A stretch of 64,000 nucleotides of DNA from Robiginitalea sp. GTDB taxonomy: Bacteria; Bacteroidota; Bacteroidia; Flavobacteriales; Flavobacteriaceae. This document shows, piece after piece, positions 46,754 through 52,691 of this stretch; the stretch's first letter is position 1, and each line of letters opens with the position of its first letter. The notes below the pieces were generated by a model. It worked only from the letters and a program-made list of their open reading frames with translations, made no database searches and was not told the DNA's origin. The DNA lies in the NCBI GenBank assembly GCA_024638915.1, contig JAHEJJ010000003.1, positions 1-64,000 on the forward strand, in the 5' to 3' direction. Both the position numbers and the translations under genes were made by a program.

Positions 46754-48118
46754 TTAATGGTTGTGTTTATCAGGCCCTGGAATGCCGCCCTCCTGGGATC
46801 CCTGTTCTCTATCCGATCCTTCCACCGCGTCGGGCCTCGCGAGAACATCAAGGGCACTGGTTTCGTCCTCCTCCAAGTCGTAGGCTTCATCCCGCGCCAT
46901 CCTTTCTTCGTCGATCTGGTCGATCAAAGTGGTCATTTTGCGTTTGTCCTTGATCATCGCCCAGGTCATGATCAGACTGGTGCCGATAATCACAAAGAGA
47001 AGTATCCCCGATTCAAATCCTTCTACCTGAGCCTCGGAAGGAATGGCATAGAACAGGAGCACGGTGATCAGTCCTCTGGGGGCCACAAATAACTGTGGAA
47101 AAATATCTTTACCCAAAAGCAATCTCAGCAAACCATAACGGATGGCATAAATACTCAACAGGATAAGCAAGCTTACCAGGGTTACTTTGATACTTAGAAG
47201 CGACGACAAAACTATGGTCATACCGAAGAACACAAAGAAAAAGGTACGTACTACAAAAGCGGTTTCAAGGGTGATGATATGCAACTCGTGATAGATTTGC
47301 TCAGCCCTGTCTTCCCTGAGAAAATGGCGCAGTTTTCCTCCGAAGAACAGCTTCATATTCGCGATTACCAGACCGAAGACCAGGATGATAATAAGAGAGG
47401 AGAGATGAAATTTCTTTCCTATAGCATAGAGCAAAAGAAGTACGGAAATAAGAAGGAATTGCTTTGCCTGACTTCGGATTTCCTGAAAGATGAGAATAAT
47501 AGCATAACTGGCCATAAAGGCGATTACGATCGTTAGCAGGATGTTTCCACCGAATTCTACCGCCACGGAGCCTTCTTCCGGTTCAAGGCGTCCTAAAAGG
47601 AAATAGAACAATATAATACCCATGATATCGGAAAAAGTACTCTCATAGATATGAAATTCCTTTTTGCTTTCCTTCAATCCACTCACACTGGGTATAATGA
47701 TGGCACTCGATAAAATAGATAAGGGGGTAGCGTAGATCCAGGCGGTAAGCATGGTTATACCAGGCACGAACTGGTAAAGAATCAACGCAGCGATCCATGC
47801 TGAGAGGAGCAGGCCCGCCAGGGCGATTGCCATGGATTTCAAAATTGGCCAAAGCTTGTCCTTTTGCAATTTAAGTTCCAGTGCCGCTTCTAGCACAATC
47901 ATGATCAGCCCAATGATTCCGAGTATCTCCAGGGTAGCGAAAAAATCAACCTCTTCGGAGGTGATGTATTTCAGGACATACTGGAGTATGACCCCTAGTA
48001 CTATGAGCAACAATACGGAAGGGATATTGGTTTTTTTTGAAATCCCGTTAAATAGAAATGAGAGAATCAGAATAACAGAGATCTCAATGATGATGTTGTA
48101 TGAGGAAAATATATCCAT
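46754..48118 (-). CDS. Cation:proton antiporter (CPA family)
   Basis: 454 residues with about 12 membrane helices. Family pattern: SFLFNGISKKTNIPSVLLLIVLGVILQ at the N-terminus, IYATPLSILSSAIIIPSVSGL in the helix 4-5 region and FVAPRGLITVLLFYAIPSEA in the conserved RG motif helix. This is the monovalent cation:proton antiporter superfamily (NhaP/KefB-like), exchanging Na+ or K+ for H+. The usual ND/DD motif is not clear, so the ion is undetermined. The last 55 or so residues are a hydrophilic, acidic tail ending in PGPDKHNH. No neighbour in operon. Confidence 0.9.
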   Translation of the reverse strand: MDIFSSYNIIIEISVILILSFLFNGISKKTNIPSVLLLIVLGVILQYVLKYITSEEVDFFATLEILGIIGLIMIVLEAALELKLQKDKLWPILKSMAIALAGLLLSAWIAALILYQFVPGITMLTAWIYATPLSILSSAIIIPSVSGLKESKKEFHIYESTFSDIMGIILFYFLLGRLEPEEGSVAVEFGGNILLTIVIAFMASYAIILIFQEIRSQAKQFLLISVLLLLYAIGKKFHLSSLIIILVFGLVIANMKLFFGGKLRHFLREDRAEQIYHELHIITLETAFVVRTFFFVFFGMTIVLSSLLSIKVTLVSLLILLSIYAIRYGLLRLLLGKDIFPQLFVAPRGLITVLLFYAIPSEAQVEGFESGILLFVIIGTSLIMTWAMIKDKRKMTTLIDQIDEERMARDEAYDLEEDETSALDVLARPDAVEGSDREQGSQEGGIPGPDKHNH

Positions 48119-48227
48119 AGAGGGTCGATAAGGTTGTTTGCCGTCAGCTAACGATGACTAAAAATAACATTTATTCATCAAACGAATAACAGAGGGAGTT
48201 CTTATGCCAACTTTATGAAAAATGTCT

Positions 48228-48235
48228 TATATTTG
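48228..48235 (+). promoter_or_regulatory. Promoter -7 element for rimP-nusA-infB
   Basis: TATATTTG, a full match to TAnnTTTG, 68 bases before rimP. There is no perfect -33 TTTG at 19 bases; TTATG lies there. Confidence 0.55.
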
Positions 48236-48264
48236 CGCCACTGAAAGAATAGTAAAGTATTCAT

Positions 48265-48289
48265 GAGGGGACTTAGCGTCCCCTCTTTT
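48265..48289 (+). promoter_or_regulatory. Terminator-like hairpin in the rimP leader, with mini-ORF
   Basis: GAGGGGAC (48265-48272), loop TTAGC, GTCCCCTC (48278-48285) then TTTT: an 8-pair, GC-rich stem with a short T-run, between the promoter and rimP. A 16-codon ORF (48263-48313, MRGLSVPSFITEIYAA) starts inside it and overlaps the rimP start by 11 bases in another frame. This could be an attenuator for the operon, whose nusA product acts on hairpin termination; that is inference. Confidence 0.55.
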
Positions 48290-48302
48290 ATTACAGAAAT
48301 TT

Positions 48303-48764
48303 ATGCTGCATGAGAAGATCGAAGGGATTTTAGATGAGGTTTTGAAAGACCGGGACTCTCTTTTCTTGATCAGTTGCACGGTTGGAGCAGACCACAGTAT
48401 AAAGATCGTTCTGGATGGTGACAAAGGGGTAAATCTTAAGGATTGTATCGATGTCAGCAGAGCTGTGGAAGGCCGGCTAGACCGCGATGATTTAGATTTC
48501 TCGCTCGAAGTTACCTCTGCAGGTGCTACGGCACCATTGGTGATCCCCAGACAATACAGGAAGAATCTGGGCAGAAAACTAAGCATAAAAACCCCGCAGC
48601 AGCATTATGAAGGTAATCTCACGGCAGCAGATTCCAACATGATTACTCTGGAATGGAAAAGCCGGGAACCCAAGCCTGTCGGAAAAGGCAAGGTGACCGT
48701 GAAAAATAAGAAGGATATCCCTATTGAAGAGATAGAGGAAGCAAAAGTTGTATTAAAATTCTAA
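48303..48764 (+). CDS. rimP: Ribosome maturation factor RimP
   Basis: 153 residues, normal length. The N-terminal domain (MLHEKIEGILDEVLKDRDSLFLISCTVGADHSIKIVLDGDKGVNL) includes VSRAVEGRLDRDDLDFSLEVTSAGATAPL; the family motif normally reads S-P-G and here is SAGATAPL, slightly varied. It helps assemble the 30S subunit. First gene of the rimP-nusA-infB operon; 13 bases separate it from nusA. Confidence 0.93.
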   Translation: MLHEKIEGILDEVLKDRDSLFLISCTVGADHSIKIVLDGDKGVNLKDCIDVSRAVEGRLDRDDLDFSLEVTSAGATAPLVIPRQYRKNLGRKLSIKTPQQHYEGNLTAADSNMITLEWKSREPKPVGKGKVTVKNKKDIPIEEIEEAKVVLKF

Positions 48765-48777
48765 CGTAAGATCAAAA

Positions 48778-50010
48778 ATGGAAAATATTGCGTTGATCGA
48801 GTCCTTTTCGGAATTTAAAGATGACAAATTCATCGATCGTGTAACCTTGATGGCGATCCTTGAAGATGTTTTCAGGAATGCCCTAAAGAAAAAGTTCGGG
48901 TCCGATGATAACTTCGACATTATCATCAACCCCGATAAGGGAGACCTTGAGATTTGGAGAAATCGGGTGGTTGTGGAGGATGGAGAAGTAGAAGATCCCC
49001 TGGAGGAGATATCACTGACCGAAGCCAGAAAAATCGAACCTGATTTTGAGGTAGGTGAAGATGTATCTGAAGAAGTAAAACTGGCCCATCTAGGAAGACG
49101 TGCGATTTTGGCGTTACGCCAGAACCTGATTTCGAAGATCCACGAACATGACAATACCACCATTTACAAGCAGTTCAAGGATCTTGAAGGTGAGATCTAC
49201 ACGGCTGAGGTTCACCATATTCGCCATAAGGCGATCATTTTGTTAGATGATGAAGGCAACGAGATCATCCTGCCTAAGGATAAGCAGATCCCTTCAGATT
49301 TTTTCAGGAAGGGAGATAATGTACGGGGTATAATAGAAAGCGTTGAATTAAAGGGGAACAAACCGATGATCATCATGTCTCGAACCTCTCCAGTATTCCT
49401 TGAGCAGTTATTTTTTCAGGAGATACCCGAGGTTTTCGATGGGTTGATCAGTATTAAGAAAGCGGTGAGAATACCAGGAGAAAAAGCCAAGGTAGCTGTT
49501 GATTCCTATGACGACAGGATCGATCCCGTCGGAGCCTGTGTGGGGATGAAAGGATCGCGTATCCATGGTATCGTTCGCGAACTTGGCAACGAGAATATCG
49601 ACGTGATCAATTGGACCAACAACTCTCAACTGATGGTCACCCGTGCTTTAAGTCCGGCCAGGGTTACCTCTGTGAAGCTCAACGATGAAAAGAAGACGGC
49701 TCAGGTGATTCTTAAACCGGAGGAGGTGTCAAAAGCGATTGGAAGGGGAGGTCACAATATCCGTCTGGCGGGTCAGCTTACCGGATATGAGATCGATGTA
49801 TTCAGGGAAGGTATTGAGGAAGATGTGGAACTCACTGAATTCTCAGATGAAATCGAAAGCTGGATCATTGAAGAACTTAAAAAGATTGGTTTAGACACTG
49901 CCCGGAGCGTCCTTGAACAAGATGCGGCCGACCTTGTAAAACGAACCGACTTGGAAGAAGAAACGATTTTAGATGTTATAAGAATCCTCAAAGAGGAGTT
50001 TGAAGATTAA
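48778..50010 (+). CDS. nusA: Transcription termination/antitermination protein NusA
   Basis: 410 residues. An N-terminal RNA polymerase-binding domain (about 1-130), an S1 domain (about 135-200) and two KH domains (about 200-345, with [48 protein letters not shown] and [18 protein letters not shown]) are visible. A short acidic C-terminus ([17 protein letters not shown]...) follows; the two extra acidic repeats of E. coli NusA are absent. It modulates pausing and hairpin-dependent termination. 41 bases upstream of infB. Confidence 0.97.
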
Positions 50011-50051: not shown

Positions 50052-52691
50052 ATGGTAGATAATGCAACAATAAGGTTAAATAAGGTCTTGAGGGAACTCA
50101 ATATCTCACTGGATAGGGCAGTGGAATATCTCGCGTCTAAAGGACACGAGGTAGTCGCGCGGCCAACTACGAAAATATCCAATGAGGTATATCAGGTTTT
50201 GCTCGATGAGTTCCAGACCGATATGAGCAAAAAAGTTGCATCCAAAGAGGTCGGAGAAGAAAAACGGAAGGAGAAAGAGGCGATAATGCTTCAGCTCGAA
50301 AAGGAACAGGAAGAGAAACGCCTGGCGCGTGAAAAACGAACAGCTGCCAGGGAAGTTATAAAAGCGAAAGTAGAGCTGGCCGGTCCTAAAAAAGTAGGCA
50401 AGATAGACCTGGAGGTCAAGGAAGAGGCCAAGGAAGAGGTTAAGGAACCGGAAAAGAAGGTCGAAAAGAAAGTCGAAAAGCCCAAAAAGGTCGCGAAGAA
50501 ACCCGTCGCGAAGAAACCCGAACCGCCTAAAGAAGAGGAGAAGGCAGAAGATGTCGAAACGATAACAACTAAGTACAAAAAGTTGTCCGGGCCCAAGATC
50601 ATGGGCGACAAGATCGACTTGACCAAATTCGACAAACCCAAAAAGAAAAAAGAAGCACCGAAAAACAGCAAGGATACCGATCGCAAGAAACGAAGGAAGC
50701 GAATTGTCAGTGGAGGCCCATCGGGTAATATGCGCGGCAGAACCGGTGGTAAAAAACAACGTTTTTCCTCAACTCCTAAAGTAGAGCCTACCGAGGAAGA
50801 GGTACAGAAACAGGTACGGGAAACCCTTGAAAAACTTCAAGGAAAATCCAAGAAGGGAAAAGCGGCTAAATATCGGAGAGAAAAAAGGGATACCCACCGC
50901 CAGCAAACCGAGAAAGATCTCGAACAACAGGAACTGGAGAGCAAAATCCTCAAGGTTACGGAATTTGTAACGGCCGGGGAAGTGGCGACCATGATGAATG
51001 TTCCCACCACAGATATCATCTCCGCATGTATGTCTTTGGGTATTATGGTGACGATGAACCAGAGGCTCGACGCAGAAACCCTTTCCATTGTGGCGGAAGA
51101 ATTCGGTTATGAAGTAGAATTTGTCACCGCATCCCTGGAAGAATCTATCGATGAGGAACAGGACGCCCCTGAAGATCTCAAACCAAGGGCGCCCATTGTA
51201 ACGGTTATGGGTCATGTAGACCATGGTAAGACATCATTGCTTGATTATATTCGGCAGGAAAATGTTATTGCCGGTGAAAGTGGTGGTATTACCCAGCATA
51301 TCGGGGCCTATGGGGTGAGCCTTTCCAACGGACAGAAGATCACATTTCTCGATACACCAGGCCATGAAGCGTTTACGGCAATGCGTGCCAGAGGGGCTCA
51401 GGTAACAGATATCGCGATCATTGTCATCGCAGCAGACGACGATATCATGCCCCAGACTAAGGAAGCTATCAGCCATGCACAGGCGGCAGGTGTTCCAATA
51501 GTATTTGCCATCAATAAAATAGACAGGCCGGAGGCTAATCCTGATAAGATCAAGGAAGGTCTGGCCGCGATGAATCTGTTGGTAGAAGATTGGGGAGGAA
51601 AGATTCAATCGCATGACATATCCGCCAAGACCGGAGATGGTGTGAAGGAACTACTGGAAAAGGTACTCCTGGAGGCCGAACTTCTCGAATTGAAAGCCAA
51701 CCCGGATAAAATGGCTGTGGGTACAGTGGTCGAAGCCTTTCTCGATAAAGGCAGGGGCTACGTATCTACGATATTGGTGCAGGGAGGCATTTTAAGCATA
51801 GGCGACTATGTTTTGGCGGGTACCTGCAGTGGTAAAGTAAAAGCCATGCATGATGAACGTGGAAAAGACGTAAAAAAGGCCGGCCCTTCCACGCCAATTT
51901 CTATTCTTGGACTGGATGGTGCACCTCAGGCGGGTGATAAGTTCAAGGTACTGGAAGATGAAAGAGAAGCTAAGCAAATAGCGGCAAAACGCAGCCAGTT
52001 GCTAAGGGAACAATCGGTGAGAACACAACGTCATATTACCCTCGACGAAATTGGCAGGAGAATTGCTCTCGGAGAATTCAAGGAGTTGAACATCATACTT
52101 AAAGGCGACGTGGATGGTTCGGTAGAAGCCCTGACCGATTCCTTCCAAAAACTATCGACCGATGAGATCCAGGTAAATATTATACACAAAGCAGTTGGGG
52201 CCATTACAGAGTCCGATGTATTGCTGGCTTCGGCTTCCGATGCGATTGTTATCGGTTTTAATGTAAGACCGATGGGGAATGCTCGCGACATAGCTGAAAA
52301 AGAGGAGATCGATATCAGATTGTACTCTATCATTTACGATGCCATCAACGATTTGAAGGATGCGATGGAAGGTATGTTGTCGCCAGAAATCAAGGAAGAG
52401 ATCTCGGGTACTGCAGAAATTCGGGAGACCTTTAAGATATCGAAGATTGGAACCATTGCTGGTTGTATGGTGACAAGCGGCAAGATTTTCAGAAATTCCC
52501 AGATTCGCCTGATCCGTGATGGGGTGGTGATCTTCACCGGAGAATTGGCCTCTCTGAAACGCTTCAAAGACGATGTAAAGGAAGTGGCCAAAGGGTACGA
52601 TTGTGGACTACAGGTCAAAAACTACAATGATATCAAAACCAGCGATATCGTTGAAGCCTACAAGGAAGTGGCGGTTAGGAAAACGCTATAA
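50052..52691 (+). CDS. infB: Translation initiation factor IF-2
   Basis: 879 residues. The N-terminal third is an extended Lys/Glu-rich region (about 70-260, e.g. [20 protein letters not shown]) with a 15-base DNA tandem repeat. Then comes the IF2 N-terminal subdomain, the GTPase domain with G1 [13 protein letters not shown]2 [11 protein letters not shown]3 DTPGHEAF and G4 INKIDRPEA, then beta-barrel II ([14 protein letters not shown]) and the C-terminal fMet-tRNA-binding domain. It brings initiator tRNA to the 30S subunit. Last gene of the operon; it converges with the SPOR gene after 22 bases. Confidence 0.97.
50490..50519 (+). repeat. 15-base perfect tandem repeat in infB
   Basis: GTCGCGAAGAAACCC occurs twice head to tail (50490-50504 and 50505-50519), encoding the repeat [10 protein letters not shown] in the basic N-terminal linker of IF-2. 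Length variation here would keep the frame. Confidence 0.85.

Follow-up and report, generated by a model that had tools for sequence, protein, structure and literature searches.

A conserved, covarying terminator-like hairpin in the leader of the rimP-nusA-infB operon of Robiginitalea and other Bacteroidota, a probable attenuator

We analysed a window of 64,000 nucleotides (nt) of Robiginitalea sp. DNA (contig JAHEJJ010000003.1, positions 1-64,000; all coordinates follow the numbering of this window), in which a hairpin lies in the leader of the rimP-nusA-infB operon. The three genes of the operon are on the plus strand and encode, according to their Pfam domains, RimP (rimP, 48303..48764; PF02576 and PF17384), NusA (nusA, 48778..50010; PF08529 and PF13184, with PF23095 under its cut-off) and IF-2 (infB, 50052..52691; PF11987, PF00009 and PF04760). 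They are preceded on the same strand by the −7 promoter box TATATTTG (48228..48235), which is of the type TAnnTTTG, the −7 promoter consensus of Bacteroidota, and the position of which places the transcription start at about 48240, with a predicted 5′ leader of 63 nt (48240..48302). Within this leader lies a terminator-like stem-loop, GAGGGGAC-TTAGC-GTCCCCTC (48265..48285, plus strand), followed directly by the U-tract TTTTATTA (48286..48293, plus strand). The sequence is as described in the initial annotation, which had reported an 8-pair GC-rich stem with a four-T tail between the promoter and rimP: as RNA it reads GAGGGGAC-UUAGC-GUCCCCUC and then UUUUAUUA, with six G-C pairs in the stem and a loop of five. 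The stem stands ~25 nt past the predicted transcription start, ~30 nt past the −7 box and 17 nt before the rimP ATG.

The 63-nt leader folds at −18.8 kcal/mol, compared to a mean of −9.3 (standard deviation (sd) 2.4) for its shuffled versions, which corresponds to a z-score of −4.0, and none of 200 shuffles equalled it. The pattern GGGGACN3-9GTCCCC occurs at a single place in the 3.04-Mb, 81-contig assembly. Across the window's own 161-kb contig, terminators were detected at 14 of 122 open reading frame (ORF) 3′ ends versus 2 of 114 intragenic windows, and the rimP hairpin, with −14.7 kcal/mol, falls inside the range of these contig terminators, 6 of the 14 being equally or more stable. Such a terminator-like shape, taken alone, would also suit the 3′ end of a preceding gene or a hairpin arisen by chance. 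However, the upstream neighbour, a Na/H exchanger gene (46754-48118, minus strand), is divergent, which excludes the hairpin as its 3′ terminator, and a promoter box intervenes between the two.

Hairpins followed by a T-run precede rimP throughout the sampled phylum. We examined leaders from the family (Flavobacteriaceae), the order, the class (Bacteroidia) and other classes using two detectors: a strict one, which requires a perfect stem with a minimum of 5 pairs, no fewer than 5 T in 8, −8 kcal/mol or lower and a distance of at most 60 nt from the rimP start, and a relaxed one, which folds the arm preceding a T-run. The family leaders derive from 50 of 56 rimP-bearing genomes plus G001 and six more; G017 and G051 were also inspected, whereas G049, G063, G070 and G074 were covered only as hits of the covariance model presented below. 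For G001 the rimP start was set 30 nt late among the family leaders (L183, on the same contig, gives 17 nt). Among rimP-bearing genomes beyond the family, leaders were covered from 36 of 38 in the order, 71 of 72 in the class and 33 of 46 in other classes, the last being mostly those with the strongest RimP scores. A hairpin with a T-run ahead of rimP was scored by the relaxed detector in 57/57 leaders of the family, 35/36 of the order, 63/71 of the class and 30/33 of the other classes, compared to 4/171, 2/108, 11/213 and 7/99 of the corresponding shuffles (24/591 in total). With the strict detector, 49/51 family, 6/6 further family, 32/36 order, 64/71 class and 21/33 other-class leaders were positive, compared to 2/255, 0/30, 1/180, 3/355 and 2/165 shuffles of the same sets; within 60 nt upstream of control ORF starts, it was positive at 3 of 253, or 3 of 162 where at least 100 nt of intergenic space was available. 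The single order leader missed by the relaxed detector (G095) has a 10-pair stem with the tail CTTTTATAT, which failed the first-T rule. For two of the class misses, G131 and G161, the rimP start used was 87 and 33 nt off the expected start, respectively, and in G131 a hit of the covariance model stands ~20 nt ahead of where rimP is expected to begin. Stems from other classes show no sequence relation to these (for instance TCGCCC..GGGCGA, GAAAGTGGGG..CCCCACTTTT and GGTGAGCG..CACTCGCT) and also end in T-runs, starting 10-43 nt before rimP. The control starts, the shuffles, the fold z-score and the recurrence in relatives lead us to reject a chance hairpin, and recurrence across the phylum likewise speaks against the terminator of an upstream gene; the probability that we attach to either origin is close to nil.

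The stem also covaries within the family. Alignment A5 comprises 52 of 53 family leaders aligned from the promoter box with pairing ignored (start points set by hand for G010 and G022; G053 omitted, as its searched stretch yielded no −7 box). In this alignment 96.9% of cells pair and five of the eight pairs show changes in both arms. None of 500 shuffles reached the covariation score of 0.126 (0.095 shuffled), and 1 of 500 reached the measure counting cells changed on both sides. Slid versions of A5 gave scores of 0.025-0.112 and up to four pairs changed on both sides, so that the margin is moderate. Alignment A4 contains 45 hairpins selected for a perfect stem and a loop of 5 or 6, which means that its 100% pairing is by selection; there, six of eight pairs changed on both sides and none of 500 shuffles reached any of five measures. 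A MAFFT alignment of 135 mixed hairpins shifted some left arms and was excluded from the counts. Clear compensatory cases are GAGCGGAC/GUCCGCUC (G061), GAGGCACGC/GCGUGCCUC (G108) and GAUGGGGC/GCCCCAUC (G113). The columns of A5 that hardly vary are those of the stem, the U-tract and the −7 box together with the C that follows it. Compensatory conservation of the stem in relatives, which had been set in advance as a test of the initial annotation, was thus found, and it confirms that the hairpin is more than chance: a real, conserved and covarying structure.

Conservation extends to the tail. Among 55 family hairpins, positions 1-4 of the tail are T in 96, 98, 100 and 98%, respectively, against a background of only 0.21-0.46 T per position 10-30 nt before the ATG at 304 control starts. 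Most family U-tracts read TTTTTATA, and G021 and G068, two family genomes in which the stem is imperfect, have T-runs of 8 and 9. These observations bear on the alternative, already raised in the initial annotation, that the hairpin is a 5′-end stabiliser shielding the operon mRNA from decay without terminating transcription. A stabiliser would likewise keep its distance from the 5′ end of the transcript, as observed, and the stem does persist with a poor T-tail in four class genomes. Yet it needs no U-tract, while the T residues are nearly invariant in the family and unrelated stems elsewhere in the phylum again precede T-runs. In view of the conserved T-run, which favours termination, we consider a stabiliser less likely than a terminator and on the whole unlikely.

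The hairpin keeps a steady distance from the promoter. TAnnTTTG was found within 70 nt upstream of the stem in 47 of 47 family leaders and 73 of 76 leaders from a set of 80 named Flavobacteriaceae loci. This tally covers stems found by a regular expression, which missed 4 of 80 named and 4 of 51 family leaders, these being left out. The distance from the −7 box to the stem is 31-38 nt in the named (sd 1.6, n=73) and 26-38 nt in the family leaders (sd 2.5, n=47), although the search for the box was confined to 18-70 nt ahead of the stem and thereby limits this distance. From the stem to the ATG, named leaders have 10-180 nt (sd 39.1, n=76) and family leaders 9-108 nt (sd 14.3, n=47), the wide sd being due to a minority with long gaps. 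The longest family value belongs to G053, where the covariance model places its hit 98 nt ahead of the rimP match and the nearer hairpin is a different one. The hairpin is no more than 60 nt from the rimP ATG in 67 of the 80 named loci; in the other 13 it is farther upstream, the 5′ end of the stem being 87-203 nt from the ATG, yet the −7 box again precedes the stem by 35-38 nt. These 13 loci, which are not all independent (four are from Arenibacter), are L156, L157, L158, L160, L163, L164, L165, L168, L170, L174, L181, L188 and L191, and have ~65-180 nt between the terminator and the rimP ATG as compared with the usual 14-18.

Since the stem kept its promoter distance in the long-gap genomes, a transcriptional or 5′-end role fits whereas a start-codon role does not, and the steady spacing favours a role in transcription. 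The competing explanation is a translational operator or initiation element near the rimP start, bound by RimP, NusA, IF2 or a ribosomal protein. It would account for a stem usually found near the ATG (median 15-17 nt), at a distance that is tight in 14 order leaders, and for the conservation of stem letters beyond pairing. G053 and 13 of the 80 named relatives nevertheless have their stem far from the ATG, and in the 13, with the four Arenibacter loci counted among them, the distance to the promoter is unchanged. An element fixed to the start codon was rejected on these 13 loci, the order sample being tight on both sides, and a protein-bound translational operator appears rather improbable to us.

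Two further features of the window's leader were considered. The initial annotation had noted a mini-ORF, MRGLSVPSFITEIYAA (48263..48313, plus strand), which indeed has 16 codons plus a stop and overlaps the rimP ATG at 48303; we judge it incidental and not conserved. An attenuator in which a ribosome on this mini-ORF opens the terminator would explain an AUG at the base of the stem, which 24 of 51 family leaders and 50 of 80 named ones have (raw counts, with 5 and 6 leaders, respectively, in which the regular expression found no hairpin included in the totals). However, the AUG is missing in the rest, the reading frames that it opens have between 4 and 166 codons and stand in any of the three phases to rimP, some running into rimP, and the recurring residues MRG..VPSF are what the conserved hairpin DNA spells. 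A conserved leader peptide was therefore rejected, as the ATG occurs in only part of the leaders and frame and length vary, and control by the mini-ORF is very unlikely. The second feature, absent from the initial annotation, is a small 5′ hairpin, GAATA-GTAAAG-TATTC (48247..48262, plus strand), with 5 pairs, which is weak, forms part of the minimum-free-energy fold and is not family-wide. Its motif (GRRTA-N-TATTC), directly upstream of the terminator, is matched by a regular expression in 41 of 71 named leaders, from loci titled Flagellimonas, Allomuricauda, Arenibacter, Maribacter, Eudoraea, Zobellia and similar, and could be a pause or binding site. In addition, the stretch just past the −7 box (CCACTGAAAG in the window, CCGTTGAAAG as the family consensus) is common to many family leaders and is a possible initial-transcription signal.

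A covariance model of the hairpin is specific within the family and weak beyond it. Of 56 rimP-bearing family genomes (60 searched), 52 have their best hit immediately before rimP; 31 of the 52 were in the model, and among independent genomes the figure is 21 of 25. In the remaining four family genomes the hairpin is either a variant followed by a T-run (G017 and G051) or imperfect (G021 and G068). In the class sample, a hit at rimP with E ≤ 0.01 was obtained in 22 of 73 rimP-bearing genomes (4 in the model), and some genomes score better elsewhere. There are 68 hits away from rimP (22 family, 46 class), and 11 of the 13 inspected lie within ~65 nt after a same-strand open frame and look like ordinary 3′ terminators; on these 11 we rejected a regulon of the same hairpin at other genes. 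One of the 11, a similar hairpin with a T-run at ~502-530 of locus L307 of G066, also precedes another open frame (MTENLQLKIDRVSKILMEDMF...) that has no Pfam match, possibly a second leader of the rimP type. On the window's own contig, outside the window (C57, ~121330-121390, minus strand; L297), the hairpin AAAGCGCCTGCGGGCGCTTT and a T-run stand before a DUF255/thioredoxin-like gene (PF03190); this hairpin appears to follow the end of the upstream frame and is probably a 3′ terminator.

Our interpretation, drawn from sequence comparison, is that the hairpin and its U-tract probably constitute an intrinsic-terminator attenuator placed early in the leader, with NusA most likely setting the level of readthrough. 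The intrinsic terminator would span from about +25 to +55. Of the RNA polymerases leaving the rimP promoter, some would terminate near +50 to +55, giving a short RNA, while the remaining ones would read through into rimP-nusA-infB. NusA, itself a product of the operon, would set the fraction, such that more NusA would cause more termination and consequently yield less NusA and IF2. We infer all three steps: termination in vivo, regulated readthrough and control by NusA. A feedback attenuator was the idea put forward in the initial annotation, and it gains support from the covariation, from the other-class stems with T-runs and from the published reading for this operon in other bacteria.

Several observations weigh against an attenuator governed by NusA. 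The U-tract of the window, TTTTATTA, is short and interrupted; no antiterminator is visible in the leader; and NusA is proposed as the most likely effector by analogy with other bacteria. The stem is at a steady distance from the ATG in most relatives (quartiles of 14-18 nt in named and 14-17 nt in family leaders), and in the order leaders caught by the regular expression this distance is tighter (sd 2.1, n=14) than that from the box to the stem (sd 3.0, n=12). In the class, the relaxed detector found no hairpin before rimP in genomes G144 and G179, and in G125, G188, G122 and G130, likewise missed, the stem is present with a poor T-tail. Finally, the letters GGGGAC/GUCCCC are retained in 32 of 64 class hairpins, beyond what a plain terminator needs. 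The four genomes with a poor T-tail (G122, G125, G130 and G188; loci L258, L115, L271 and L119, respectively) retain GGGGAC/GTCCCC as well, which hints at a second function of the stem. Because these letters are retained in half of the class hairpins and in the four with a poor T-tail, the Bacteroidia stem might, as a tentative proposal of which we remain doubtful, be a sequence-specific RNA site read by an operon product, either the KH domains of NusA or RimP. If true, the leader would harbour a sequence-addressed feedback switch at a steady distance from the promoter.

To our knowledge, termination control has been little studied in Bacteroidota. Attenuation at the rimP leader itself is of an already known kind, to which our analysis adds the phylum-wide spread, the geometry and the covariation. 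In the survey of 302 genomes by Naville and Gautheret (2010; PMC2965389), as its passages describe it, rimP came first among the genes predicted to be regulated by attenuation, with a G-rich/C-rich stem and NusA as the favoured effector. The hairpin described here resembles that rimP-leader in lying in the 5′ untranslated region (UTR) of rimP-nusA-infB, in being a terminator with a G-rich 5′ arm, a C-rich 3′ arm and a T-stretch (GAGGGGAC/GUCCCCUC followed by UUUU), and in having no larger conserved element or antiterminator, the small 5′ hairpin being an extra in part of the family. Its 17 nt from the gene start falls within the published range of 4-130 nt, which a few of the 76 named relatives measured (10-180 nt) exceed. 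The published motif, GGGc...gCCC (PMC2965389), differs from the GGGGAC...GUCCCC of most Flavobacteriaceae, with GGG/CCC kept; at the corresponding depth, 39 of the 45 relatives in alignment A4 have an A-U pair, 5 have G-C and one has C-G. The strings "Bacteroid" and "Flavobact" are absent from the main text of that article as available (PMC2965389).

A structured 5′ element upstream of rimP has been reported in Flavobacterium psychrophilum, with occurrence in other Flavobacteriaceae genera and without an Rfam hit (PMC9723704). It is very probably the same element, although the passages concerned name it only, without sequence, mechanism or a link to NusA (PMC9723704). Rfam family RF01770 (rimP), a 102-position model, is named for the leader of the same gene. 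It matched E. coli only among 14 control genomes, gave no match up to E = 10 in 48150-48400, and exceeded its gathering cut-off in 0 of 61 Bacteroidota genomes, with weak matches in 5 of 61, none at rimP; membership in RF01770 was rejected on these below-cut-off results in the window and the 61 genomes. A fusion carrying the E. coli rimP 5′ UTR and ORF is described as having lower expression in a Rho mutant (PMC7815308), so that control of the rimP operon may differ between groups. We found no published mechanism for a rimP attenuator in Bacteroidota among the titles, abstracts and passages searched, mostly outside subscription journals.

The closest mechanistic precedents come from other phyla. 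NusA of B. subtilis is reported to autoregulate by stimulating termination in its 5′ leader (PMC12288461), that is, at a leader terminator of the same operon; the B. subtilis leader has 180 nt (PMC2965389) versus the ~60 nt predicted here, and the evidence there is experimental. Interruptions of the distal U-tract are described for NusA-dependent terminators (PMC8060035), and the U-tract is likewise interrupted here, usually as TTTTTATA in the family and as TTTTATTA in the window. In S. agalactiae, RNA-seq of gbs0413-gbs0418 revealed termination 31 nt after the transcription start, before rimP-nusA-infB, with a short and a long RNA, and feedback by NusA was suggested for this leader (PMC4448216). 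That case belongs to another phylum and is based on RNA-seq, whereas the Bacteroidota hairpin is known here from comparative sequence data. The operon shared by NusA and IF2, two central factors of transcription and translation, appears to be under the same kind of early brake in phyla that parted very long ago; the present data extend this rimP-operon brake through the sampled Bacteroidota.
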